DNA of 64,000 nt from Azorinus chamasolen (taxonomy: Eukaryota; Mollusca; Bivalvia; Cardiida; Solecurtidae): assembly GCA_963576725.1 (NCBI GenBank), contig OY755242.1, positions 21,201,315-21,265,314 on the forward strand. The letters are read 5' to 3'. Within the stretch, counting starts at the first letter, position 1. Each line of letters opens with the position of its first letter. The notes below the pieces were generated by a model. That model was not told the DNA's origin and made no database searches. It worked only from the letters and a program-made list of their open reading frames with translations. Position numbers and translations under genes: made by a program. This document shows positions 14,006 to 63,384 of the stretch, in pieces.

Positions 14006-14317
14006 ATTTCTTGCCAACGCACCTTCCTCAAGAATTCCGATTCAAACATGGCATTTGGTTATTCGTGTAGCGAAGTGGTCCATGAAACCGGATACCACGC
14101 AAACATAGGCGCAGACTACACACGTGAACTTTACAGTGGAACTAACACAGGTTAATGTACGACAGTACTTGCACACACCATCATCTTTCTTGGACAAGCT
14201 AATTGCATATTGTTGATGTAATTTGCCAATCATGTAACAACTTAGACCTCGCGGTATCTATCCCTTGGATAATAGCAATCTGTGTACATGCAGGTGAATA
14301 CACGACAAAAAGTGGTA

Positions 14318-15550
14318 ATGGATAGTTTGTATACAGCGAGTTTCTACAGCTTATCTCGCAAACATGCAGCACTAATATTTCTACTCTGTGCACACGTAGT
14401 ACACTCTACTCCGAAATTTAGCGAGACAGAGAAGACGGAGACGAAAACTATTCTTGTATTTGGTGGAAATGGGTTTATTGGTACCGCAACTGTGGAGAAA
14501 CTGCTACACGCAAATCACACTGTTGTGATTGTGAATCGAGGTAATTGGTACTGGGATTCTGCCGAAACTGTGAAACCATTTGTGAAGCATTTACAGTGTG
14601 ACCGCATGCAGTCATTACAGAAATGTTCAGACCTACAACATTACATCTGGAGTGAGAATTCTCCATCACATTTTGATGCAGTTGTGGATTTTAGTGGATA
14701 TCACCTTTTCGAAATATCAGATGCACTGGGAATACTGAAAGGAAAGTTAAAACGCTACATATTCATTAGCAGTGACTCTGTATATGAGGTTTGCAACAAA
14801 ACTCACAGTGAATTCACACGAGAAGAAGATGCAAAACGACCAGAATCACCCGAAGACATGGCAATGTTTAGTGCCCGTGATGATTATGGAAACCGGAAAT
14901 TGAAATGTGAAGAGGAACTCCAAAAACAGACAGGAAGTGACGACAGTGTTCCATATATCGCATTCAGACTTCCGGATGTTGTTGGTCCTCGAGATAACAC
15001 ATACAGGTGGTGGATATATCAGTTATGGATTAAATTGAGTAACTATTTAGACAAGCACCTGTCTGTTCCACGTGACTTCTTGGATAAGCCAATCAGTTTT
15101 GTATTTGTAGATGACGTTGCTGACATAATCACCGACGTAATAGACTACGGAGATGACGTTTACAACCAAGCATACAACCTCGCAAACAGCGAGCACCCAA
15201 CACTGGTCGAATTTCTACACGATTTAATGGATACTTTAGACGTGGAAGACATCGAGATTTTGCCCGACGATGACGGACGATTTCGGTTATTTCCATCTGT
15301 TAAGCTTGGTCCGGTTGACACTTCGAAAGCTAGGCGTGTTCTCCGATGGAACCCAACTTCATGGATTGATATTATGGAATCTACTACCATGTTCTATGAG
15401 ACTGCGATCTCAAATCAGAGTTACGACGCCGCACGTCGACAAGTTGTCAAAACAATGCAAGACTACTTTTCCGAAAACCCGGTTAAAGTGAATCATGGCT
15501 TAAGAGACATTTATGATGTAACGCTAGCAAGCTCTCACGATGAACTGTGA
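14318..15550 (+). CDS. NAD-dependent epimerase/dehydratase-like protein (extended SDR), secretory signal
   Basis: An intact 410-codon intronless frame starting at the ATG of MDSLYTASF. An ATG ten codons upstream (14,288) is also possible, but this start places a hydrophobic segment (ALIFLLCAHVV, residues 18-28) as a plausible signal peptide or anchor. The Rossmann NAD(P)-binding motif GGNGFIG begins at about residue 49. A VVDFSGYH segment follows, then FISSDSVYE, which supplies the catalytic Ser region. The Y-x3-K motif is YGNRK at about residues 190-194. Further on are RLPDVVGPRDNT and FVFVDDVADI, as in extended short-chain dehydrogenases (UDP-sugar epimerases, dTDP-glucose dehydratases, CSP41-like proteins). 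The substrate is unknown. The lack of introns could mean an old retrocopy. The partial duplicate at 46,115-46,942 carries a stop codon, which argues that only this copy functions. Confidence 0.85.
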   Translation: MDSLYTASFYSLSRKHAALIFLLCAHVVHSTPKFSETEKTETKTILVFGGNGFIGTATVEKLLHANHTVVIVNRGNWYWDSAETVKPFVKHLQCDRMQSLQKCSDLQHYIWSENSPSHFDAVVDFSGYHLFEISDALGILKGKLKRYIFISSDSVYEVCNKTHSEFTREEDAKRPESPEDMAMFSARDDYGNRKLKCEEELQKQTGSDDSVPYIAFRLPDVVGPRDNTYRWWIYQLWIKLSNYLDKHLSVPRDFLDKPISFVFVDDVADIITDVIDYGDDVYNQAYNLANSEHPTLVEFLHDLMDTLDVEDIEILPDDDGRFRLFPSVKLGPVDTSKARRVLRWNPTSWIDIMESTTMFYETAISNQSYDAARRQVVKTMQDYFSENPVKVNHGLRDIYDVTLASSHDEL

Positions 15551-30910: not shown

Positions 30911-31678
30911 ATGGATACTTGCATGCCATTGGCGATCTTGCTTATGGTTTTTCTTGTCCAGTTCATGGGTACAATAGGTAGTTTGGACTCTGACCTATCT
31001 TTGGACAATCGTTTAGACGGAAAGACTCTGCTCGATATGGGAAAAGATTTTAATAAACCGCTACTTAAACTTCTTGGAAAAGTCGTATTGAATAGTGAGA
31101 AAAACATTAAAAGGCTGTGTCGCTTCCATCCATGTACGGAATGGGGATCGTGGTCAGAATGTCCTATGGGTCCGGAATTTGGTATAGTGACCAGGTCACG
31201 TATGTGTAATGGAACAACTGAAATATGCAAGTTTGACAGTCAGACAAATTTTACAACAAATGAGTCTAAAATTTGTGAAGGTAAATGTCCTCCAGGCTAC
31301 AACAGGATCAACGGATACTGTCTAAAGTTTTCTCAGACGACATTGAAGCAAGCAGACGCGGAAGCTGATTGTCAAAAGGAAGGCGGTCACACGGTGAACA
31401 TTAACACAAAACACATATCTGACAGTGTGCATGCGCTTCTTAAGAATCAAAATTATACGGATTATATCTGGATTAATGGGAACAGGGCTAATGTCGGATC
31501 ATCCTGGACGTTTACCTATGGTGCCGCTCCTAATTTTGATAATTGGAAATCATCAGAGCCTTCAAACGGTTCGGACGAATTATGCAAGGTAGACGGAACT
31601 GTCACCAAGACGAGAACGAGATGTTGGTATGACCGAGAATGCATAAATACATACAAATTTGTTTGTCATATTGTTTAA
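30911..31678 (+). CDS. Secreted TSP1-like plus C-type lectin domain protein
   Basis: An intact 255-codon single-exon frame from ATG. Residues 1-24 form a signal peptide (hydrophobic LAILLMVFLVQFMG). Residues of about 70-115 form a thrombospondin type-1-like repeat, with WGSWSECP, SRMCNG and paired cysteines. From about residue 120 there is a C-type lectin domain: CPPGYNRINGYC opening, AEADCQKEGGH, WINGNR, WTFTYG, NWKSSEPSN, then a WYD variant of the WND motif and the closing FVCHIV. EPS replaces the usual EPN, so the Ca2+/sugar specificity is uncertain. Such proteins in molluscs usually act in extracellular recognition, often in immunity (family knowledge, not shown here). Several N-x-S/T sites are present. 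No clear AATAAA is visible just downstream. Confidence 0.85.
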   Translation: MDTCMPLAILLMVFLVQFMGTIGSLDSDLSLDNRLDGKTLLDMGKDFNKPLLKLLGKVVLNSEKNIKRLCRFHPCTEWGSWSECPMGPEFGIVTRSRMCNGTTEICKFDSQTNFTTNESKICEGKCPPGYNRINGYCLKFSQTTLKQADAEADCQKEGGHTVNINTKHISDSVHALLKNQNYTDYIWINGNRANVGSSWTFTYGAAPNFDNWKSSEPSNGSDELCKVDGTVTKTRTRCWYDRECINTYKFVCHIV

Positions 31679-45357: not shown

Positions 45358-46113
45358 ATTCCATAAAGCAAGGTGAACGTAAAACAGAACGCTCCTATAG
45401 GAGCGTTCTGTTTTACTTTCACCTTGCTTTAAGCAGCCACCTGCCCTATATACCAGCTAATTAACTCAAATAAGTGGTCGTTATAGAGAGGTTTTACTGT
45501 AGAAAGAAGCGGAGAAGAGTACAATATAGCTTTTCACGGATGTGTACGAGTCCAGAATATTAACCTCATGGTAGTAAGCGCATATTTTTACAGTAAGACC
45601 TCTTAAAAATGACCACTAAAAGAGGTCTTAATTATTTGTCGTAACATTGTCCTGAATCTTTATTGGCACCGAAGAGCTAAGCTGTGATTTAAAGAGATTA
45701 CGACGCTGTTGTTGGTGGTGGCGTTACGATGCTGTTGCTGCTGGTGTTACGATGCTGTTAGTGGTGTTGTTGTTACGATAATGTTGGTGGTGCTGTTGTT
45801 ACGATGTTGATAGGTCGGTGTTGTTGTTACGATTCTGTTGGTGGTGGTGTTGTTACGATGCTATTAGTGGTGTTGTTGTTACGGTGATGCTGGTAGTGGT
45901 GTGGTTACGATGTTGCTGGGTTTGTTGTTGTTACGATGTTGTTGTTGTTGGTGGTGTTACAATGTTGTTATTGGTGGTGGTGTTACGATGTTGTTGTTGG
46001 TGGTGGTGTTAAGATGCTGTTGGTGGTGGTGTGGCTGTTGTTTGAGGTTACGACGCTATTGGTGACAGTGTCGTTACGATGTTGTTGGTGGTGATGTGGT
46101 TGTTGGTTGAGGT
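45358..46113 (+). repeat. Direct duplicate of 43,404-44,154
   Basis: Starts TTCCATAAAGCAAGGTGAAC, as at 43,404, and follows it through the MITE right half and the GTT-rich minisatellite to GGTTGTTGGTTGAGGTT. It then jumps into the epimerase sequence at 46,114. The duplicated segment is specific to copy B. Confidence 0.85.
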
Positions 46114-46114
46114 T

Positions 46115-46942
46115 GCACTGGGAATACTGAAAGGAAAGTTAAAACGTTACATATTCATTAGCAGTAACTCTGTATATGAGGTTTGCAACAAAACTCACAG
46201 CCAATTCACACGAGAAGAAGATGTAAAACGACCGGAATCACCCGAAGACATGGCAATGTTTAGTGCCCGTGATGATTATGGAAACCGGAAATTGAAATGT
46301 GAAGAGGAACTCCAAAAACAGACAGGAAGTGACGACAGTGTTCCATATATCGCATTCAGACTTCTGGATGTTGTTGGTCCTCGAGATAACACATACAGGT
46401 GGTGGATATATCAGTTATGGATTAAATTGAGTAACTATTTAGACAAGCACCTGTCTGTCCCACGTGACTTCTGGGATAAGCCAATCAGTTTTGTATTTGT
46501 AGATGACGTTGCTGACATAATTACCGACGTAATAGACTAGGGAGATGACGTTTACAACCAAGCATACAACCTCGCAAACAGCGAGCACCCAACACTGGTC
46601 GAATTTCTACACGATTTAATGGATACTTTAGACGTGGAAGACATCGAGATTTTGCCCGACGATGACGGACGATTTCGGTTATTTCCATCAGTTAAGCTTG
46701 GTCCGGTTGACACTTCGAAAGCTAGGCGTGTTCTCCGATGGAACCCAACTTCCTGGATTGACATTATGGAATCTACTACCATGTTCTATGAGACTGCGAT
46801 CTCAAATTATAGTTACGACGCCGCACGGCGACAAGTTGTCAAAACAATGCAAGACTACTTTTCCGAAAACCCGGTTAAAGTGAATCATGGCTTAAGAGAC
46901 ATTTATGATGTAACGCTAGCAAGCTCTCACGATGAACTGTGA
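46115..46942 (+). pseudogene. Epimerase/dehydratase-like pseudogene (5'-truncated, nonsense)
   Basis: Matches 14,723-15,550 at near identity with a constant offset of 31,392. The first 135 codons, including the signal peptide and the GGNGFIG cofactor motif, are gone and replaced by minisatellite. A TAC-to-TAG change makes an in-frame stop at 46,538-46,540. The catalytic YGNRK is still present upstream of the stop and the C-terminal frame reopens after it. Without the Rossmann N-terminus it cannot encode a working enzyme. Confidence 0.9.
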
Positions 46943-50038: not shown

Positions 50039-50121
50039 TTAAGACATACGGGTATAATCATTATGGGGCAAAATAGATATTGCTTTGTAATCACCACACT
50101 ATGCTGTGGGTCAAAGTGCAT

Positions 50122-50340
50122 GGACTGAAGGAATTATCAGCTGCAAATATGTACCTGGCACAAAGTAGCTTGAAGGAATTACCAGCTGCAAATATGTACC
50201 TGGCACAAAGTAGCTTGAAGGAATTACCAGCTGCAAATATGTACCTGACACAAAGTGAACTGAGGGAATTATCAGCTGCAAATATGTACCTGACACAAAG
50301 TGGCCTGAAGGAATTATCAGCTGCAAATATGTACCTGACA
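50122..50340 (+). repeat. 45-bp minisatellite, ~5 units (copy B)
   Basis: Same array as 18,752-18,970 with different unit variants. Confidence 0.9.
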
Positions 50341-50453
50341 TTAATTAACAATTTCCATCATATAAACGCCTTTTCATGCATTTACAAACAGGGTAGACCC
50401 AGATCAAACGGTTCCAACCGCAGCTATCTGATCAGAGCATGAACTGTTTGCTA

Positions 50454-50814
50454 CAGTGCTCCCTCTCTACAACGACACCCTTTGGGATACGAAGATTGTA
50501 TGTGTTGTTCAGAGGGAGTTGTTATAGGGAGGGAAAATCAAACATAATTAGCTTGTTTGCAGATCCCCAGATAAGGTGTATTTCGAGAACTAAAACCGTT
50601 ATGCCTCAATCAAACCCTATGTTGTGACCACTCTTTAGAATCGTCACAAAGTGACGATTCTAAAGAGTGGTCACACCATAGGGTTTGATGGAGGCATAAA
50701 GAAAATACGATGGAAAAAGTTGTTTCTGGAGCCTTGTTGTTTCGGAAACAGTGACATGCGTTGTTGTAAGGAGGGAATCGTTATTGAGAGGGCCGTTGTA
50801 GGGAGGGAACACTG
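50454..50814 (-). mobile_element. 361-bp TA-flanked MITE, inverted, inserted only in copy B
   Basis: TA at 50,452-50,453 and 50,815-50,816. Ends CAGTGCTCCCTCTCTACAAC and GTTGTAGGGAGGGAACACTG. Copy A has the empty site TTTGCTATTGACTAAT near 19,077. Confidence 0.85.
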
Positions 50815-50856
50815 TATTGACTAATATATATATGTGCTCATTGCCAAAAGTCATAT

Positions 50857-51136
50857 GATCATGTGGCGTTATAAACTATCACCTGCTCATGTGGCGTTAT
50901 AAACTATCACCTGCTCATGTGGCGTTATAAACTATCACCTGCTCATGTGGCGTTATAAACTATCACCTGCTCATGTGGCGTTATAAACTATCACCTGTTC
51001 ATGTGGCGTTATAAGCTATCACCTGCTCATGTGGCGTTATAAACTATCACATGTTCATGTGGCGTTATAAACTATCACATGTTCATGTGGCGTTATAAAC
51101 TATCACATGTTCATGTGGCGTTATAAACTATCATCT
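50857..51136 (+). repeat. 28-bp minisatellite, 10 units
   Basis: The unit is GCTCATGTGGCGTTATAAAC plus TATCACCT, with exactly 280 bp of array. Copy A has one unit at 19,124-19,151. Confidence 0.95.
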
Positions 51137-51443
51137 AAATAATATCTATGTTGGCATTATAGTTTACATGAGTAATCTTGAAATAATAAATTTTGCTGTC
51201 CATGACAAAAAATGACAAAAAGTAAAAGTGTGATTGCTCATACTGTATTTTTATTTCTCTTTTTTTACCAGTATTAAAATATCATGGAAAGGTGGTTCAT
51301 ATCATTCCAGTCCATTGAACTCGTTACCTAATGAATATTCATTTAAGAAATAATGATATGAATATTAATCAGCCGAATGTTTAACAACAATATGAGCTTG
51401 GGAGGTTTTGATTGTGACAGAAACTGCAGAAAATGATTATCTA

Positions 51444-53533: not shown

Positions 53534-53537
53534 GTTA
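53534..53537. other. Target-site duplication GTTA (left)
   Basis: GTTA directly precedes the 5' LTR and recurs at 61,659-61,662 after the 3' LTR. A 4-bp duplication fits Ty3/Gypsy integrases. Confidence 0.85.
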
Positions 53538-54642
53538 TGTGACAATTGGCTCCTTTTTGATAGTTTTACCCATTCCTCAACTTTTGTTTATTTGGGTTAT
53601 TTAGTAGTTTAGAGAGTATTTAGTGCCCTAAGGAAGCGGCTAACAATTAATGGAAAGAAACTACCCAGTAATGTGAGTAATTACATCGTATTTGCTAGTT
53701 ATAGTCTAAGACTTATTGGTTTATAATATTGAAACGATGCTTTGGTATATGTGTGCAATAAAAGGTATTGGAATGGCCAGCTACGTGATTCAAGAACGAC
53801 AACATGTGGGGACGAATAAGTTAAGCGTGGTACCAAGAATTAACAGGGTACCACTCATAAGTGTATATAAACAGTGATTTTCTATTGCATGGCGCATTTG
53901 CCTCTCGATCGACGTAGAGTTAACATCGTTGATAATAAATGCCATTATTGTTTTAACTTTGGTTAGTGTGCGGAAGGGGACACTCAGACCGGATTGTATG
54001 TTTATATATTTTATATAAACTGCGTTCCAACGTGCAGAGTCTCCTATACCAAATACACGATATACCGGGTTATAACAGCGCTTAACAGATAGGACTGAGT
54101 GTGTACTGAGTACATAGGACCGAGTCGGTGTTTGACTCAGTCGTTGGTAGACTCGGTGCTGGACCCATTCATAGGACCCAGTCAGTGACTGAGTCGGTCA
54201 TAGGACTGAATCATATTGCATGAGTCTCAGTGATCTATACGTTCACTGAACCCGTAGGTCTAGGGCTTGTATATCTGACCCGTGTTGGAATACCGGCCTT
54301 GGAGTTTATACTGTTTCTTACTATTTGGTATTAAACACTGCATTTAAAACTTAGTTATATTAGAACTGGTTAGACTGGGTAGTTTCTTACTGAGTAATTC
54401 TGTTTGATTCTGTATATATTAAATCATAGACCCAATCATTGTTTGATTAAGGGAATATCCCGACCCATTCATTCATTTAGTTTGTTTAATCACAGAAGCA
54501 GATAGCTTGAGGAAAATTATATTATATAGTTCTAGTGTATTTTGACCGAGTCATACATAAGCAAAGAAGCTCCAGGAATATTTGTATATATAGGGTACAC
54601 TTGGTCAGGGTACTGAGTGAGACACGCTCGAGACACGTTACA
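53538..54642 (+). repeat. 5' LTR, 1,105 bp
   Basis: Begins TGTGACAATTGGCTCC and ends CGAGACACGTTACA (TGT...ACA). A TATATAA box at 53,864-53,870 is followed by AATAAA at 53,934-53,939, plausible promoter and polyadenylation signals. Another AATAAA lies at 53,757. A cluster of GACTSAGTCGGT-like repeats at about 54,090-54,215 includes TGACTCA (54,133-54,139), an AP-1 consensus site. Confidence 0.95.
53864..53870 (+). promoter_or_regulatory. LTR TATA box (candidate)
   Basis: TATATAA within GTGTATATAAACAG, about 65 bp before AATAAA. A second TATA-rich stretch lies at 54,000-54,020, so the start site is not settled. Confidence 0.5.
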
Positions 54643-54718
54643 TAATTTGGTGGCAGCGGTGGGATGTTGAACAGATAGACACACATCTATCTTCTTACCC
54701 ATTAGTACTTGATACAGC
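54643..54718 (+). promoter_or_regulatory. Primer-binding site (tRNA-Leu) and leader
   Basis: Six bases after the LTR, TGGTGGCAGCGGTGGGAT (54,649-54,666) is complementary to the 3' end of animal tRNA-Leu of the AAG/UAG type, including CCA (tRNA sequence recalled, not searched). Use of tRNA-Leu is reported for the clam element Steamer. The remaining leader runs to the ATG at 54,719. Confidence 0.85.
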
Positions 54719-57700
54719 ATGGATACAGGCCTCGAACGTCGACTTAAGGCGTTAGACGAGAAATTAGAGAATATGTCCAGACGGAATGAAGCCAGTAGGC
54801 TAGAAGCAGAGATAAGCGTTCTTGAGCAGCAGCTGCTGACCTTTGATCAAGGAGACTATGAGAGACATGGTGCAAGTGAGCAACTCAGTAGCACCAGGAC
54901 GGATGGTCAGATTCATGTACCTACACCGAATCAGCAGCCTACCCAATCACATTGGTTTTCACCCAGGAAACACAAAGTTCATGAGACTGAGAACATTCCA
55001 GATCGGGTCATAGACAAAGTATGTACAGAACCAAAGTCATCATTTACTAGGAGACCGAAACAAAATGAACACAGCACTGGTTCAAAGGTTGGACCCAGTC
55101 ATGGAGTGAAGGTGAAACCAGCTACATATGACGGGACCGGGTCATGGGCAGACTACATTGCTCATTTTCAAGTCTGTGCGAACATCAATGGATGGAGTAA
55201 TGCTGACAAAGGCTTATACCTTGCTGTGTCACTGAGAGGACAGGCACAGGGTGTGCTTGGGAACATGACGAGTCAGTCAAATGACTTTCACAAACTCAGT
55301 ACCGCATTGCAGGAACGGTTTGCTCCACCGAATCAGACTGAGTTGTACCGGTGTCAGCTCAAGGATAGAAGACAAAAGGCCTCTGAAAGTTTGGCCGAGT
55401 TAGCACAAGACGTTAGGAGACTTACAAACTTAGCATACCCCAGTGCCCCATCAGATCTGAAAGATATTCTTGCTAAAGAACACTTTCTAGACTCATTACA
55501 TAGTTCAGAAATCCGAATAAAGGTTAAACAGGCCCGACCCACAAATTTGAATGATGCAGTCCAACATGCCATTGAACAAGAGGCATTCTACCGAACAGAA
55601 CAAAAGAGAGTGTCTGACAAAGGGCAGTTATACTCAACTTGTGCTCCAGACACAGATACTGGGACATGTGAGATGAAAGAACTTAAGGATGCACTGAGTT
55701 CATTGCAAAATGAATTCAAAAGCTGGACCAAGCGGAATGAGTCTAGGACTGAACCCAAAGGTACGCAGCACAACAGAACATGGCAGAAACCAGAGAGACC
55801 CAGGCACGATAGTAATGGGTTCAGAAATCGAGGCAGAACAGAACCAAGAAAATGCTATGAGTGCGGGTCTGAGCAGCATCTCAGGTACGACTGTCCCAAG
55901 CTGAAACAACAGTCAACCCAGTATGGAGGTGGTAATTGGAATGGACCCAGAGAGTATGAGAAGAAAAAGAAGAGCAATTGGAATGGCAACAATACAAAAC
56001 AATATGGTCATAACAAGGACGATGGGTCTGTGAACACATCTGGCTATAAAGGTTCAGGTCTATACTTGACAGGAGAGATAGCAGGTCGAGTCGTGGATTG
56101 TCTGGTTGACACCGGAGCTACATTGACTCTTATCTCGTCCAAGGTATGGAACAACATCAACGATGGCAGCAAACAGCTGAATACTTTTGACCGAAACATA
56201 GAATCAGCATCGGGTGATCTCATAAACAGCCAGGGGAAGACAAGAGAAACGCTGAATATAGATGGTACCCAGTACCAATGCGATGTTGTTGTAGCAGACA
56301 TTGAGACTGATATGATACTCGGTCTTGATTTCCTCAAGAAAGAAAGAGGAAAGCTGGATTTCGAAAACAACAGTCTGGTCTTAGGACAACAGAGTGTGAC
56401 CCTGTCATGCACAGGATCACTAGGCTGCTACAGGGTGGTAGTTACTGAACGGGCCGAGATACCCGCAAGATCTGAAATGATTATTAAAGGCAGAATTGAA
56501 AACAACAACTTGAGCAGGACTGAACCATGCCTTATTGAACCCATTCCGAAAGACTGCCATTCAGAAACAAATATAGCAAAATGTTTGGTTCATGCAAAAG
56601 ATGAAATACCGGTTCGGGTCATGAATCCAACAAATGAAAAGCAAGTTCTTTTCCCGGGAACACGGGTAGCAACTGCAAGCCAGGTATGCGAAATACAGAA
56701 GACCAAGTTTCAAACCGAACGGACAGGGAAAGGAACCTCAATACCCTCACATTTGCAAGACTTATACAATAGGACTGTTGTTGGGTTAGACCCGAAACAG
56801 AAGAAAGAAGTAGCTGTACTTCTGAACAAGTATGATGATGTATTTTCAGAATGTGAAAATGACATCGGGCGAACTGGTATCATTAAGCATAAAATCGACA
56901 CCAGTGATTCGCACCCAGTCAAACAACCAATGCGTCGTATACCCATGCACATGAACAGCGAAATTGACACACAAATTGACCAAATGCTAGAGAAAGACGT
57001 GATTCAGCCATCAAAGAGTCCATGGTCGAGTGGCATTGTGTTGGTCAAAAAGAAAGATGGAAGTACACGATTCTGCATTGATTACAGACGACTCAATGAT
57101 TTGACAGTGAAAGATGCATATCCTCTTCCGAGGATAGATGAATGTCTCGACCAGTTAGCTGGCAACCACTGGTTTTCATGTCTTGACTTGAATTCTGGGT
57201 ACTGGCAAGTGGAACTCGATGAAGCAGACCGCGACAAGACGGCATTCAATAGTAGGAAGGGATTGTTTGAGTTCAAAGTAATGCCGTTTGGTCTTTGTAA
57301 TGCACCTGCAACATTTGAAAGACTCATGGAGACTGTTTTGACCGGGTTACAGTGGGAGATATGTTTGATTTACCTAGACGATATCATCGTCACAGGTAAA
57401 AGCTTTGATCAGATGATCACAAACCTGTGTCAAGTGTTAGATAGATTCCGAGAGGCAGGACTCAAACTGAAACCGAAGAAGTGTCACCTCTTTGCCAAAG
57501 AAGTTGAGTTCCTGGGCCACATCATATCAGCCGACGGAATTAGAACCGATCCCAAAAAGACTGAAGCGATCAGAACTTGGCCAGAACCAAAATGCGTTAG
57601 AGATGTTCGATCATTTTTAGGTCTATGTAGTTATTACAGACGCTTCATATTCAATTTCGCAGACATAGCGAGACCACTACACAAATTGACAAACCTAGGT

Positions 57701-60397
57701 CAAAAGTTTGAATGGATCGAGTCTTGTGCTGAAGCATTTGAAATACTGAAACAGAAACTGACCGAATCACCCATTTTGACTCATCCAGACTTTAGCAAGT
57801 CATTTATACTGGACACGGACGCAAGTGACCAGTCCATTGGCGCAGTTCTGTCCCAGGTGACAGACGGGAATGAACAAGTGATAGCGTACGCGAGCAGAAC
57901 ACTGAGCAAGTCTGAGAGAAAATACTGTGTCACCCGAAAAGAGCTACTAGCGTTAGTTCACTTTGTTAAATACTTCAAACACTACCTGTATGGTAAACAG
58001 TTCCTGGTTCGGACCGATCACGGCTCCTTGACATGGTTGCTAAATTTCAAGAATCCAGAAGGACAAGTCGCAAGATGGCTTGAAGTCCTGTCATCATTTG
58101 AGATGAAAATTGAACATAGAGCTGGTAGGCTACACAAGAATGCTGATAGTCTCAGTAGACGAACATGCAAGCAGTGTGGACTTGATTGTGTAGTAGCAGA
58201 GAAAGAAAGATCAAATCCAACTGCAAGACAGTTACACGTCTCAGATGCTGAGACCAAGACAGATTCAGAGACATTGGAGCTGAAAACGGCTCAATACAAT
58301 GACAAAGACATAGAGTTGGTCAAGAGTTGGATCCAGCAAGGGTATAGACCGAAGTCAACAGAAGTATCGGAGGGAAGCTATTTCATCAAGTCACTGTGGA
58401 CACAGTTTGACAGGCTAGAAGTCAAGGATGAGATGTTAGTACGAAGATGGGATGTCCTCGGGACAAGCATAGTGAATTTGCAGGCCATAGTTCCTCTTTC
58501 ACAAAGAAGGAATGTTCTCAAATATTCGCATGACATCAGGGCATCGGGTCATTTGGGCATCAAGAAGACACTAAGTAGAATAAGACAGAAGTATTATTGG
58601 CCATGTCTTCAGAATGATGTAAAGAACTATGTGAATGGGTGCGAGATCTGTGCCAAGAGAAAAGGGCCAATGAAGACCAAAAGAGCACCGATGCAAGTGA
58701 CAAGGGCTGGATATCCTATGGAAAGGATCGCCGTAGATATACTGGGGGCGTTGCCTGAAACAGAAAATGGCAACAAATACATTTTGGTAGTAGCAGACTA
58801 CTTTACCAAATGGACCGAGAGCTACCCAATGCCTAATATGGAGGCATCGACCGTAGCCAGACTGATTGTGGAGCAACTAGTATGTCGTTTCGGTGTGCCT
58901 AGAAAGATACACTCAGACCAAGGGAGACAGTTTGAGAGCAATCTGTTTCTGGAAATGTGTAAATTGCTCCAAATTGAAAAGACCAGAACCACGCCGTACC
59001 ATCCTGAATCGGATGGCATGGTCGAAAGGTTCAATAGGACATTGTGTGAGATGTTAAGTGCATATGTGACCGAGAACCACAGAAGTTGGGACATGCACTT
59101 ACCCTATGTCATGATGGCATATCGCTCAACAGACCACGAGACAACGGGAATGAGTCCAAATATGCTGATGCTTGGGCGAGAAACTACAGCTCCACTAGAC
59201 ATCTTGTATGCAATGCCGACAAGCATAAAATCTATCCCGTCAGGTCAGTGGGTCTGGGAGTTACAAGAGGCATTAGAAGATGCACACAGCTTTGTCAGGG
59301 AATACACGGGTAGATCTGTTAGGCGTCAGAAACGGTATCATGATAGAAAGCTTAGTTATGAGACTCTAGATAAGGGTGATAATGTTTTTGTATTTTTTCC
59401 AGTTAGAAAGGTAGCAGAGTCATCGAAGCTGACTTCATACTGGAAGGGACCGTTCCAGGTGAACGAGAAATTATCTGAAGTTTTGTACAAAATTAATTGT
59501 GGCAGATCTGGTTCCTTTCAGGTAATTCATGTTGACAGATTAAAGAAAGCCAGGGACCAGTTACTGATCGGCGAAGAAATTGTACCACAAGCCGAACCAT
59601 TTTCTCCGGCTGGAGAAATTGACCCAGTCACTGACCCGGTTGAAGACGAAACTGTTGAAGACTTAGGGTCATGCAAACGCAAAAGAAGGAAGCCTGTGTG
59701 GTCTCATGACTATGTATTTTCTCTTTGCAGGGCTAACATGGCAAAGACGAAAACTACTCCTCGTACAATATGTGCCATATGCAAATGCTCAGTTCCCCCT
59801 GATCAGAGTTACCAGGACCATGTCGTTAGATGTGTCAACAGTAGATTGAAGTGTGAGGCCTGTGGCATGGACTTTAAGAACAAAGAATGCCTTAAACGGC
59901 ACATGAAGAAAAAGCATCCACAAGAAAGTGGCGATGATATACCTCACAGTGATCATGCAGATAACAGTGACTGGGACGAGGATCCTGCTATAGAGGTAGG
60001 AACCAGTGAGCTAGAAAGTGGGCGAGTCGTGAGAAAGCGAACCTCACCAACGCCTGTTATGGCACCTGCTAAAAAGGCAGCAACAGCATCAGCTGTTGAA
60101 AGCAAATCTGCTTGGGTTCAGGTTCAGACGGAACATGATCACAAGACAGTTCAAGCTGAACCAAATGTTTGCAACAAGAGTGTACAAGTTGATCTAGGAG
60201 AAGACACTGAAAGGAAATACACGTGTGAATACTGTGAGATCAAGTATGTGAATGAAGTTATGTATCACTTGCACATGGGATGCCATTCTGTGACGGATCC
60301 GTTTAGGTGCAATATCTGTGGTGCAGGCTGCAATGATCCAGTGTCGTTCCAGGTGCATGTCACCAGAGGGCACACAGTGCAGAATTATATTCATTGA
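54719..60397 (+). CDS. Gag-Pol polyprotein with C-terminal Ikaros-like zinc-finger module
   Basis: One 1,892-codon frame with no frameshift. An N-terminal coiled coil (about 1-45) is followed by a Gag capsid-like region (about 130-300) and a CCHC knuckle CYECGSEQHLRYDC (379-392). The protease active site is DTGA at 464-467. The reverse transcriptase has catalytic D823 and YLDD 885-888. RNase H has DTDAS with D1034. Integrase has an H1271/H1278/C1308/C1311 zinc domain, the D1340-D1400-E1436 triad (D-x35-E) and a GPY/F-like YWKGPF tail. All key residues are present, so it is probably active. Unusually, about 220 further residues hold four zinc fingers: C1685-C1706 (C2HC), C1713-H1734, C1836-H1856 and C1864-H1885. 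The last two carry the VMYHLHMGCH...DPFRCNICG signature of Ikaros/Hunchback C-terminal fingers. The linker is acidic, then basic (VRKRTSP, AKKA), possibly an NLS. The Gypsy lineage is not resolved. Confidence 0.95.
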   Translation: MDTGLERRLKALDEKLENMSRRNEASRLEAEISVLEQQLLTFDQGDYERHGASEQLSSTRTDGQIHVPTPNQQPTQSHWFSPRKHKVHETENIPDRVIDKVCTEPKSSFTRRPKQNEHSTGSKVGPSHGVKVKPATYDGTGSWADYIAHFQVCANINGWSNADKGLYLAVSLRGQAQGVLGNMTSQSNDFHKLSTALQERFAPPNQTELYRCQLKDRRQKASESLAELAQDVRRLTNLAYPSAPSDLKDILAKEHFLDSLHSSEIRIKVKQARPTNLNDAVQHAIEQEAFYRTEQKRVSDKGQLYSTCAPDTDTGTCEMKELKDALSSLQNEFKSWTKRNESRTEPKGTQHNRTWQKPERPRHDSNGFRNRGRTEPRKCYECGSEQHLRYDCPKLKQQSTQYGGGNWNGPREYEKKKKSNWNGNNTKQYGHNKDDGSVNTSGYKGSGLYLTGEIAGRVVDCLVDTGATLTLISSKVWNNINDGSKQLNTFDRNIESASGDLINSQGKTRETLNIDGTQYQCDVVVADIETDMILGLDFLKKERGKLDFENNSLVLGQQSVTLSCTGSLGCYRVVVTERAEIPARSEMIIKGRIENNNLSRTEPCLIEPIPKDCHSETNIAKCLVHAKDEIPVRVMNPTNEKQVLFPGTRVATASQVCEIQKTKFQTERTGKGTSIPSHLQDLYNRTVVGLDPKQKKEVAVLLNKYDDVFSECENDIGRTGIIKHKIDTSDSHPVKQPMRRIPMHMNSEIDTQIDQMLEKDVIQPSKSPWSSGIVLVKKKDGSTRFCIDYRRLNDLTVKDAYPLPRIDECLDQLAGNHWFSCLDLNSGYWQVELDEADRDKTAFNSRKGLFEFKVMPFGLCNAPATFERLMETVLTGLQWEICLIYLDDIIVTGKSFDQMITNLCQVLDRFREAGLKLKPKKCHLFAKEVEFLGHIISADGIRTDPKKTEAIRTWPEPKCVRDVRSFLGLCSYYRRFIFNFADIARPLHKLTNLGQKFEWIESCAEAFEILKQKLTESPILTHPDFSKSFILDTDASDQSIGAVLSQVTDGNEQVIAYASRTLSKSERKYCVTRKELLALVHFVKYFKHYLYGKQFLVRTDHGSLTWLLNFKNPEGQVARWLEVLSSFEMKIEHRAGRLHKNADSLSRRTCKQCGLDCVVAEKERSNPTARQLHVSDAETKTDSETLELKTAQYNDKDIELVKSWIQQGYRPKSTEVSEGSYFIKSLWTQFDRLEVKDEMLVRRWDVLGTSIVNLQAIVPLSQRRNVLKYSHDIRASGHLGIKKTLSRIRQKYYWPCLQNDVKNYVNGCEICAKRKGPMKTKRAPMQVTRAGYPMERIAVDILGALPETENGNKYILVVADYFTKWTESYPMPNMEASTVARLIVEQLVCRFGVPRKIHSDQGRQFESNLFLEMCKLLQIEKTRTTPYHPESDGMVERFNRTLCEMLSAYVTENHRSWDMHLPYVMMAYRSTDHETTGMSPNMLMLGRETTAPLDILYAMPTSIKSIPSGQWVWELQEALEDAHSFVREYTGRSVRRQKRYHDRKLSYETLDKGDNVFVFFPVRKVAESSKLTSYWKGPFQVNEKLSEVLYKINCGRSGSFQVIHVDRLKKARDQLLIGEEIVPQAEPFSPAGEIDPVTDPVEDETVEDLGSCKRKRRKPVWSHDYVFSLCRANMAKTKTTPRTICAICKCSVPPDQSYQDHVVRCVNSRLKCEACGMDFKNKECLKRHMKKKHPQESGDDIPHSDHADNSDWDEDPAIEVGTSELESGRVVRKRTSPTPVMAPAKKAATASAVESKSAWVQVQTEHDHKTVQAEPNVCNKSVQVDLGEDTERKYTCEYCEIKYVNEVMYHLHMGCHSVTDPFRCNICGAGCNDPVSFQVHVTRGHTVQNYIH
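59717..59730 (+). promoter_or_regulatory. Candidate 3' splice acceptor inside the Gypsy ORF
   Basis: TTTTCTCTTTGCAG followed by G matches the acceptor consensus, a pyrimidine tract then CAG. The next ATG (59,738) is in frame and begins MAKTKTTPRT, just before the first zinc finger. A spliced subgenomic RNA from an upstream donor could express the finger module alone. The donor was not identified. Confidence 0.5.
59738..60397 (+). other. Candidate accessory ORF: 219-aa zinc-finger protein
   Basis: The C-terminal part of the polyprotein frame, starting at M1674. It holds two N-terminal fingers (one C2HC, one classical C2H2), a linker of about 100 residues with acidic and basic patches, and two C-terminal fingers of the Ikaros/Hunchback dimerisation type that end six residues before the stop. 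The layout, DNA-binding-type fingers first and a dimerisation pair last, mirrors Ikaros proteins. Whether it is released by proteolysis, splicing or neither is unknown. Confidence 0.6.
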
Positions 60398-60553
60398 GAA
60401 TCAGGGAGAACATTTTGTTCAAGTTTTATCCAGTTAATATGAAACTGTTTACTGTTGTTTGTTTAGTGTTAGCTTAGAACTGTTCATTTGTTAAACTTTC
60501 AGGTTTTTTTATCATTGTGTTAAGCGGGACGCTTAAATCGGAGGCGTGGGTAA
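60398..60553 (+). other. Gypsy 3' UTR with purine-rich tract
   Basis: GGAGGCGTGGG at 60,540-60,550, three bases before the LTR, is the likely plus-strand primer (polypurine tract), though a C and a T interrupt it. The preceding AAGCGGGACGCTT can form a small hairpin. Confidence 0.6.
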
Positions 60554-61658
60554 TGTGACAATTGGCTCCTTTTTGATAGTTTTACCCATTCCTCAACTTT
60601 TGTTTATTTGGGTTATTTAGTAGTTTAGAGAGTATTTAGTGCCCTAAGGAAGCGGCTAACAATTAATGGAAAGAAACTACCCAGTAATGTGAGTAATTAC
60701 ATCGTATTTGCTAGTTATAGTCTAAGACTTATTGGTTTATAATATTGAAACGATGCTTTGGTATATGTGTGCAATAAAAGGTATTGGAATGGCCAGCTAC
60801 GTGATTCAAGAACGACAACATGTGGGGACGAATAAGTTAAGCGTGGTACCAAGAATTAACAGGGTACCACTCATAAGTGTATATAAACAGTGATTTTCTA
60901 TTGCATGGCGCATTTGCCTCTCGATCGACGTAGAGTTAACATCGTTGATAATAAATGCCATTATTGTTTTAACTTTGGTTAGTGTGCGGAAGGGGACACT
61001 CAGACCGGATTGTATGTTTATATATTTTATATAAACTGCGTTCCAACGTGCAGAGTCTCCTATACCAAATACACGATATACCGGGTTATAACAGCGCTTA
61101 ACAGATAGGACTGAGTGTGTACTGAGTACATAGGACCGAGTCGGTGTTTGACTCAGTCGTTGGTAGACTCGGTGCTGGACCCATTCATAGGACCCAGTCA
61201 GTGACTGAGTCGGTCATAGGACTGAATCATATTGCATGAGTCTCAGTGATCTATACGTTCACTGAACCCGTAGGTCTAGGGCTTGTATATCTGACCCGTG
61301 TTGGAATACCGGCCTTGGAGTTTATACTGTTTCTTACTATTTGGTATTAAACACTGCATTTAAAACTTAGTTATATTAGAACTGGTTAGACTGGGTAGTT
61401 TCTTACTGAGTAATTCTGTTTGATTCTGTATATATTAAATCATAGACCCAATCATTGTTTGATTAAGGGAATATCCCGACCCATTCATTCATTTAGTTTG
61501 TTTAATCACAGAAGCAGATAGCTTGAGGAAAATTATATTATATAGTTCTAGTGTATTTTGACCGAGTCATACATAAGCAAAGAAGCTCCAGGAATATTTG
61601 TATATATAGGGTACACTTGGTCAGGGTACTGAGTGAGACACGCTCGAGACACGTTACA
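60554..61658 (+). repeat. 3' LTR, 1,105 bp
   Basis: Reads the same as the 5' LTR throughout in a side-by-side comparison by eye. Confidence 0.95.
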
Positions 61659-61662
61659 GTTA
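61659..61662. other. Target-site duplication GTTA (right)
   Basis: Matches 53,534-53,537. Confidence 0.85.
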
Positions 61663-61897: not shown

Positions 61898-62827
61898 TTA
61901 AAGCAGGATAAAGGCAAAGCAGAAACTTTAACTCGTTCCAAGCATACACCTGCCTCTTGATTGCTGGATATAGATACTGTAGATAAATGTGTGGCTAGTA
62001 ACTCCATACAGTGTGCCTTTGCAAACGCAGTAGATCCACATTAGAACGGTCTGATCAGGATCTGTTGTTTGATTATGACTTAAAATGGTTATGGCTGGTA
62101 GCCCATAATTTTGTGTGCATATGCCATTAAAAGAATGCACCCAGTTAAATTATATTCAAGATCTCATTATTTATTATAGAAGGAAAGGGTTAAGGAATAA
62201 GAAACAATTGTTAGGAGTTATAAAATGATAGGGTAGTAACATGCATCAAAATTATCAATAAAAACAAAAAAGAGAAAGCAAACAAAGATGCTACATCATG
62301 ATCTATCTGATCTGGGTCTACTCTGTTCGCAAAAAACGCATTTATTGTGGAAAGGTAAAGAACCTTATGTTCATTAATTAAGGTTCTATTGCACTTCTTG
62401 TGTAGATTCGTCCCATCCCCGCGTGGCTTTGAATGCAGTTTCTGATCAGGTCCTACACTGTAAACTCGTCTCATCCTCGTCTGGCTTTGAACACTGTAGA
62501 TATTGTAGACTCGACCCGCCTTACTTGAATTATCTGATCAGGTTCTACAATGTACAATGTACGCAGACGTTTTTTGAACGCACATATCCTGTGTGAAAAG
62601 AGCGCGATATAAATGTGGTATAATAAATAAATTAATCTTGAGATACATGTTGCAGTGTTTTGATAAATAATAAACCTCGCGCGGTAGATTATGCAGGTCG
62701 TAAGAACACATGATGTCTTGTCCGTGACAGAAACTATAGACTCGGATCTCTAATAACCTATAAACCCATAATCATACAGAACAAACCCTTATCAAACAGC
62801 TCCTACAGCAGCCGTCTGATAGAGGTA
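61898..62827. other. Non-coding; SINE/LINE tail at 62,566-62,628
   Basis: A TTTTGAACGCACATATCCTG...GTGTGAAAAGAGCGCGATATAA tail with AATAAATAAATT lies at 62,566-62,628. Half of a GATCAGACGGCTCC hairpin MITE lies at about 62,760-62,825 and is split by the 361-bp MITE; its other half continues at 63,191 (GTCTGTTTGCAAGAGCGTG). No gene. Confidence 0.5.
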
Positions 62828-63188
62828 CAGTGCTCCCTCCCTACAACGGCCCTCTCAATAACGATTCCCTCCTTACAACAGCGCATGTCACTGTTTCCGA
62901 AACAACAAGGCTCCAGAAACAACTTTTTCCATCGTATTTTCTTTATGCCTCCATCAAACCCTATGATGTGACCACTCTTTAGAATCGTCACTTTGTGACG
63001 ATTCTAAAGAGTGGTCACAACATAGGGTTTGATTGAGGCATAACGGTTTTAGTTCTCGAAATACACCTTATCTGGGGATCTGCAAACAAGCTAATTATGT
63101 TTGATTTTCCCTCCCTATAACAACTCCCTCTGAACAACACATACAATCTTCATATCCCAAAGGGTGTCGTTGTAGAGAGGGATCACTG
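62828..63188 (+). mobile_element. 361-bp TA-flanked MITE, full length
   Basis: TA on both sides. It is inserted inside a piggyBac-like hairpin MITE, whose two halves can be joined across it. The terminal G-to-T change in GGGATCACTG distinguishes it from the 19,157 copy. Confidence 0.85.
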
Positions 63189-63384
63189 TAGTCTGTTTGC
63201 AAGAGCGTGAAATTGCGCTTCTATCAGCTAAAAGATTAACTTGTTTTTTCGTTATCTGTTATAAAACTGGTCTGTTTTAAAACGTGGCCAAAACTATAAA
63301 TTCAGAGAATTGTTATCAATAGGCGTTTTACAGGTGATGTTTTCCCATCTGCCAAAATTCAGTCCAGAAAAAAACAGTATTTAA

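Follow-up and report, generated by a model that had tools for sequence, protein, structure and literature searches.

The domains known to be fused past the integrase of Ty3/Gypsy retrotransposons are mainly chromodomains. The element described here, from the bivalve Azorinus chamasolen, continues past its integrase into four zinc fingers, the last two of which form a pair of the Ikaros/Hunchback C-terminal type (DZF). It lies in a 64,000-nucleotide stretch, termed the window (assembly GCA_963576725.1, contig OY755242.1, forward-strand positions 21,201,315-21,265,314). At least two alternative end-modules, the DZF pair among them, occur on a shared backbone, an alternation that was missed in a preliminary description of this DNA, made from its letters alone.

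The DZF of Ikaros, Hunchback and TRPS1 consists, as here, of two adjacent C2H2 fingers with HxGxH, DPF or DPY, and CNxCG at the extreme C-terminus, but it is joined to N-terminal transcription-factor fingers and not to a retroelement integrase. Chromoviruses also carry an extra chromatin-factor-like domain past the integrase (PMC12440569); theirs is a chromodomain at the C-terminus of pol, whereas fingers and exchangeable cassettes are found here, and no chromodomain was present among the Pfam matches of the tail up to E 1. In Ginger1, a Gypsy-type integrase with a GPY/F region is likewise followed by alternative C-terminal domains (OTU or Ulp1), although these elements are DNA transposons with protease domains and not long terminal repeat (LTR) retrotransposons (PMC2836005). 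The LTR retrotransposons of bdelloid rotifers have repeatedly gained extra functions, one type of open reading frame (ORF) at least twice (PMC5408684); their captured ORF3s (Env-like, DEDDy, GDSL) are separate, whereas the present cassette is fused in frame past the integrase, and that text has 0 occurrences of the term zinc finger. An orchid Ty3/Gypsy lineage has similarly fixed a host-type domain, an AlkB N6-methyladenosine (m6A) demethylase, but as an enzyme in an additional ORF and in plants (PMC9289625). A domain past a Gypsy-type integrase and the gain of extra ORFs are known kinds of thing; among the open-licence full texts listed, neither an Ikaros-type pair in a retrotransposon nor two alternating cassettes on one Gypsy backbone was found.

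The element in the window is a young Ty3/Gypsy retrotransposon whose lineage bears a C-terminal extension past the integrase. Gag-pol and the tail are encoded in one frame by a single ORF (Table 1), and a Pfam scan gave the Ty3/Gypsy (Metaviridae) order of gag, protease, reverse transcriptase (RT), RNase H and integrase; the CCHC knuckle in this ORF scored slightly below its Pfam cut-off. The GPY/F region was identified by the WKGPF motif (YWKGPF...) and by Integrase_p58_C (E 1.7e-10), both of which precede the tail. The flanking LTRs are identical, with TG...CA ends, and a short target-site duplication (GTTA, 4 bp) stands on either side of the element, so the insertion looks recent.

After GPY/F, the tail contains in order: an acidic/basic linker, the motif W..DYVFS, the segment MAKTKTTPR, a C2HC finger and a C2H2 finger (module 1), a linker of ~100 residues and the final finger pair. 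The four fingers past the integrase, as claimed in the preliminary description, are all present in the 1892-aa ORF. Fingers 3 and 4 (C1836-H1856 and C1864-H1885, ending seven residues ahead of the stop) were numbered exactly there, while the end of finger 1 (C2HC type, C1685-C1705) and finger 2 (C2H2, C1712-H1733) had each been placed one residue too high. A conserved basic stretch between the two finger modules is a possible nuclear localisation signal. AlphaFold modelling of 10 aligned tails gave a predicted local distance difference test (pLDDT) score of ~80 for the two finger pairs and <50 for the linker, as disorder would give (mean pLDDT 58, predicted template modelling score 0.25).

For assessment of the final pair, a DZF profile was built from the pairs of five host genes alone (L021, L022, L037, L046, L047) and was run against 2079 distinct stop-to-stop frames of at least 45 aa, taken from the fetched loci and the window. 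Element pairs scored 42-79 bits and the pair of the window 71.4 bits, against 21.2 bits for the best non-DZF stretch. When aligned with what we take to be the human IKZF1 pair, the window pair scored 158; in 2000 shuffles with every C and H fixed, the score was 35.6 +/- 11.5 and the highest 78. The host pairs themselves were placed in the Ikaros/Hunchback family with the human IKZF1 and fly hunchback pair sequences, both as we presume them to read. A published description of the family was also used (PMC12506653). Family residues besides the zinc ligands are kept in the element pair, and its extreme C-terminal position is common to host genes and elements (1-7 residues from the stop in the frames read).

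Standard searches would fit ordinary DNA-binding C2H2 fingers with an Ikaros likeness due to chance or convergence: Pfam matched the pair with generic zf-C2H2-type models alone, generic C2H2 proteins ranked first in a sequence search of solved structures (PDB), and a fold search with a DZF-ending (A-type) tail again brought up generic C2H2 fingers, without a match at E <= 0.001. An NCBIfam search gave nothing useful. The DZF assignment rests on the profile comparison for this reason, and the 50-bit gap obtained with a profile made from host genes only, together with shuffles that reached less than half of the observed score, leads us to reject chance resemblance and makes this explanation very improbable. 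The Ikaros/Hunchback identity proposed in the preliminary description was borne out.

One genome of 1.72 Gb was searched, and all copy counts are lower bounds. At E <= 0.001 the whole tail had at least 106 matches, with 150 of 1053 candidates scored; the pair alone, at E <= 0.01, had 111, with 150 of 1738 scored. Thirty-nine of the 111 (E <= 2.2e-5) were read as DZF-like, namely 5 host genes and 34 retroelement-like places; L048 and L049, the two fetched from the other 72, scored as ordinary C2H2. By eye, the five host genes have long frames with at least one further finger upstream, the pair at the C-terminus and no retroelement sequence seen. The region from GPY/F to module 1 was found in 30 of the 34 element-like places and was not matched in the fetched stretch of L035, L039, L042 and L043. 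Representatives of five A-type groups are L001, L006, L023, L034 and L024, and the DZF cassette is carried by 5 of the 12 subfamily groups examined. A one-off fusion, which the preliminary description had named as an outcome that would count against it, is ruled out by the many copies of the module in the same genome.

These copies also bear on whether the tail is a passive passenger without function, derived from read-through or chance fusion. Twenty of the 34 element-like places have an uninterrupted frame from GPY/F through to the stop with every ligand in place, and 14 do not; the latter would suit a passenger, as would the amino-acid changes without silent changes in the pair of closely related copies (detailed below). 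Between groups, however, the pair changed far less at amino-acid than at silent sites: 33/130 against 24/32 between L001 and L006 (dN/dS, the ratio of amino-acid to silent change, 0.10), and 30.3/132 against 20.7/30 between L023 and L034 (dN/dS 0.13). These ratios are soft because silent sites are near saturation, and the L006/L023 comparison is saturated at silent sites. With the ligands conserved and linker residues invariant across groups as well, a passenger is hardly credible.

In other subfamilies, the integrase end and the first finger module are the same, and the tail closes instead with a beta-rich module of ~80 aa (B), which has 52 matches in the genome; it occupies the final ~80 codons of the open tails L050-L069. 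A tree of the shared part requires, on its starred branches, that the end-module changed at least twice. L052 carries a true B module (E 1e-12), while the rows L050 and L051, whose end-module is denoted B', nest with the A rows L023, L026 and L029 (support 100/100). Three B modules had no Pfam match up to E 10, and a fold search of the viral library with B gave nothing at E <= 0.001. Foldseek leaned to alpha-crystallin domains, but a small heat-shock domain was found to be without support from VIA, Pfam or hhalign: alignment of B with four host small heat-shock proteins by hhalign scored 13.6, which was equalled or exceeded by 3/40 column shuffles.

Tails also differ more than their surroundings. 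Over eight within-group pairs, silent differences amounted to 33/1434 sites upstream and 96.5/1244 sites in the tail (Fisher 5e-11, with sites treated as independent), and the same pairs were 96-99.6% identical over 500 nt past the stop. The pairs were chosen by hand, groups L055, L056, L052 and L024 were left out, at most 300 codons upstream were compared and windows of <15 codons were dropped. Most of the signal came from L006/L018, L023/L026, L034/L040, L054/L065 and L050/L051, and little from L001/L005, L060/L069 and L053/L067. A divergent tail between near-identical flanks is the trace that template switching among co-packaged RNAs would be expected to leave.

Capture of a host domain, as had been proposed, is the natural reading, given the five host genes with such a pair at their ends. 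That much stands; the tree of pairs names neither donor, direction nor number of captures. This tree (12 rows, 52 residues) has one starred branch among nine inner ones (L023 with L034), and it joins L024 to host L021 (90/93) and L001 to host L022 (88/84), neither firmly supported. Relatives outside this genome were not found with the tail alone (28 protein candidates), with the tail scored within the RT-to-end piece (147 candidates), in GTDB genomes, or by a motif search for the tail among the RT relatives listed (120 of 7960); viral contigs gave one 15-residue match, in L070, and none with A6. These negatives carry little weight, as such searches either depend on short words in common or cover few animal genomes. 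Two close RT relatives, P0010 and P0016, are labelled as from metagenome-assembled genomes of Candidatus Thiodiazotropha endolucinida; a Gypsy RT in bacterial assemblies probably represents contamination by the host animal.

In our favoured reading, to which we give an even chance, the end of the tail is a cassette for protein interaction that serves, first of all, to pair one tail with another. This reading is drawn from the reported action of DZF pairs, the LC8-like sites described below, the position past the finger module and the conservation between groups. Both homo- and heterodimers of DZF pairs are described (PMC12506653, citing McCarty 2003). The extension consists of a fixed part (an H3-like motif, module 1 and the basic stretch) followed by an exchangeable end-cassette. 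Contact between two DZF pairs would join two tails, perhaps aided by the dimeric hub LC8, and the paired tails, each with its module 1 and integrase, would then dock on DNA or chromatin as one two-headed unit. Template switching between co-packaged RNAs would exchange the cassettes, the DZF cassette having derived from a host transcription-factor gene.

The case for LC8 is drawn from short motifs in the linker immediately ahead of the DZF pair, where two glutamines stand 11 residues apart (one representative each of four A-type groups, L024 uncounted); the central Q is invariant in the aligned A-type tails. The words are KTVQAE and KSVQVD in the window and KGVQAK and DKASQTSD in L006; published LC8 motifs include LDAGSQTS and VDKETNTE (PMC5746249). 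Counting overlaps, 10 LC8-like words were found in the four A linkers, against a shuffle mean of 3.5 (equalled or exceeded in 2/2000 shuffles), and a stricter pattern gave 5 against 0.5 (0/2000); the seven B linkers held 1 word against a mean of 2.8. LC8-like words also occur ahead of the pair in two host genes, L021 and L047, in the latter at a distance of ~110 residues. LC8a interacts with TRPS1, a protein with Ikaros-like C-terminal fingers (PMC3972667). LC8 clients carry motifs of the K-x-T/V/I/S-Q-T/V type in disordered sequence; the VQ motifs, in a linker modelled at low confidence, are, as a lead, candidate sites of this kind.

The same DZF action would allow a different partner: the element pair may heterodimerise with host factors of the Ikaros/Hunchback type, and these factors would then bring the integration complex to their own sites or turn the LTR on or off, as suggested in the preliminary description. 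The same genome contains at least five host genes that end in a DZF, heterodimerisation within the family is described (PMC12506653), and the family residues retained in the pair are in keeping with such contacts. Many copies of the same backbone carry the other end-module, however, so the lineage as a whole can do without host DZF partners, and HBL-1 of C. elegans bound none of the Ikaros-family members tested from that animal (PMC12506653). We regard this partnership as possible but rather unlikely.

The fixed part opens, ahead of module 1, with M-x-x-T-K-x-T-x-R-K, a motif that has the register of the histone H3 N-terminus (A-R-T-K-Q-T-A-R-K, as we take it to read). It is present in both tail types, with the first K and the R invariant in 12/12 typed segments. 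In the fetched DNA, 56 of 304,089 words equalled or exceeded the score of this presumed H3 word (16 distinct, all element-like by their letters), as did 2 of 20,000 shuffles of it. H3 was not listed in a phmmer search of PDB sequences with one H3-like segment. A putative H3 mimic is a lead offered by these letters. It would suit end-cassettes that are alternative tethers to chromatin or cofactors, much like the chromodomains of chromoviruses, swapped to alter target-site choice or evade host control, with dimerisation incidental; the repeated change of module on a stable backbone and the tail-specific mosaicism would also fit. The H3 likeness is nevertheless a short one, recognised post hoc, and it belongs to the shared part and not to the cassette; we consider this explanation unlikely. 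Doubtful too, and somewhat more speculative, is a lineage that builds look-alikes of chromatin factors. It would combine an H3-tail mimic, perhaps freed when the protease cuts ahead of A-K-T-K, with a finger module, LC8 sites and a dimerisation module taken from the host; its ends would be exchanged like plugs, and it could pair with host Ikaros/Hunchback regulators or with itself.

Several observations weigh against tail-tail pairing by an exchanged, host-derived cassette. The DZF of C. elegans HBL-1 does not homodimerise (PMC12506653). None of the five stricter LC8 words is in L023, and the LC8-like and H3-like signals were both noticed after the fact. If every cassette were a dimeriser, B should be one, and its fold searches are discordant. 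The B' modules of L050 and L051 scored near background against B (12.0 bits, with 11.1 for the A tail L023 as negative control and 10.0 for the best of 1000 shuffles), so that B' is weak as a true B module and may be a third one. In the close pairs L001/L004, L001/L005, L004/L005 and L034/L036, the finger pair has 1-3 amino-acid and zero silent changes, a pattern that gives no evidence of present-day selection on it. The mosaic signal is post hoc, has 5 of the 8 pairs as its main source and could instead be due to a locally raised mutation rate. With a pair tree this weak, one capture or several, in either direction, would all fit.

A dimerisation module captured from an animal transcription factor, conserved across diverged subfamilies and traded for a different module on one and the same backbone, would reveal retroelement tails evolving as interchangeable interaction cassettes. 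Copies of types A and B in one genome offer a natural experiment on the end of the polyprotein versus insertion sites.

Table 1. Coordinates of the Gypsy element and its tail in the window.
Feature	Position	Strand	Remark
Target-site duplication GTTA	5' copy 53534..53537, 3' copy 61659-61662	.	
5' LTR	53538..54642	+	1105 bp, TG...CA, same as 3' LTR
Primer-binding site	54648..54665	+	complement of a presumed tRNA-Leu 3' end
Gag-pol-tail ORF	54719..60397	+	1892 aa
Gag, Retrotrans_gag	55223..55429	+	23.5 bits, slightly below cut-off 24.1
Aspartyl protease	56069..56341	+	Pfam scan
Reverse transcriptase and RNase H	57134..58099	+	part within scanned piece
Integrase zinc-binding and catalytic domains	58490..59005	+	Pfam scan
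Integrase GPY/F region, Integrase_p58_C	59438..59548	+	motif and Pfam
MAKTKTTPR, M-x-x-T-K-x-T-x-R motif	59738..59764	+	conserved
Module 1, C2HC and C2H2 finger	59771..59917	+	common to both tail types
Basic stretch GR..RKRT.P.PV.AP.K	60020..60076	+	conserved; possible nuclear localisation signal
Linker with VQ motifs KTVQAE, KSVQVD	60128..60205	+	LC8-binding-like
DZF, Ikaros/Hunchback-type C-terminal finger pair	60224..60373	+	profile comparison
Purine-rich tract ahead of 3' LTR	60540..60553	+	
3' LTR	60554..61658	+	same as 5' LTR

The primer-binding site reads as the complement of the 3' end of what we take to be tRNA-Leu, and the purine-rich tract (CGGAGGCGTGGGT) resembles the variable/T-arm of the same presumed tRNA. 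Assignment of the element to Troyka was rejected: Troyka is defined by an integrase without GPF/Y and by LTRs of 100-400 bp (PMC12440569), and here GPY/F is present and the LTR measures 1105 bp.

The whole Gypsy element is enclosed by an inverted repeat of 366 nt (99% complementary, arms 50451-50816 and 62826-63191, 12 kb apart), and it may therefore sit inside another mobile element. Tandem repeats with spacings of 28 bp and 45 bp lie upstream of it (50795-51186 and 50121-50347). Elsewhere in the window, Epimerase-like ORFs (two places) and a C-type-lectin-like ORF (14282-15550, 46079-46540, 30911-31678) have the appearance of ordinary host gene pieces. In the genome, some tail copies are evenly spaced: G000:C11:74682607 and 74689636 (7029 bases), and G000:C7:51977477, 51984464, 51991451 and 51998438 (three times 6987). 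These spacings are near the LTR-plus-internal length of 7016 found here, and the copies are possibly head-to-tail retroelement arrays, perhaps with common LTRs.

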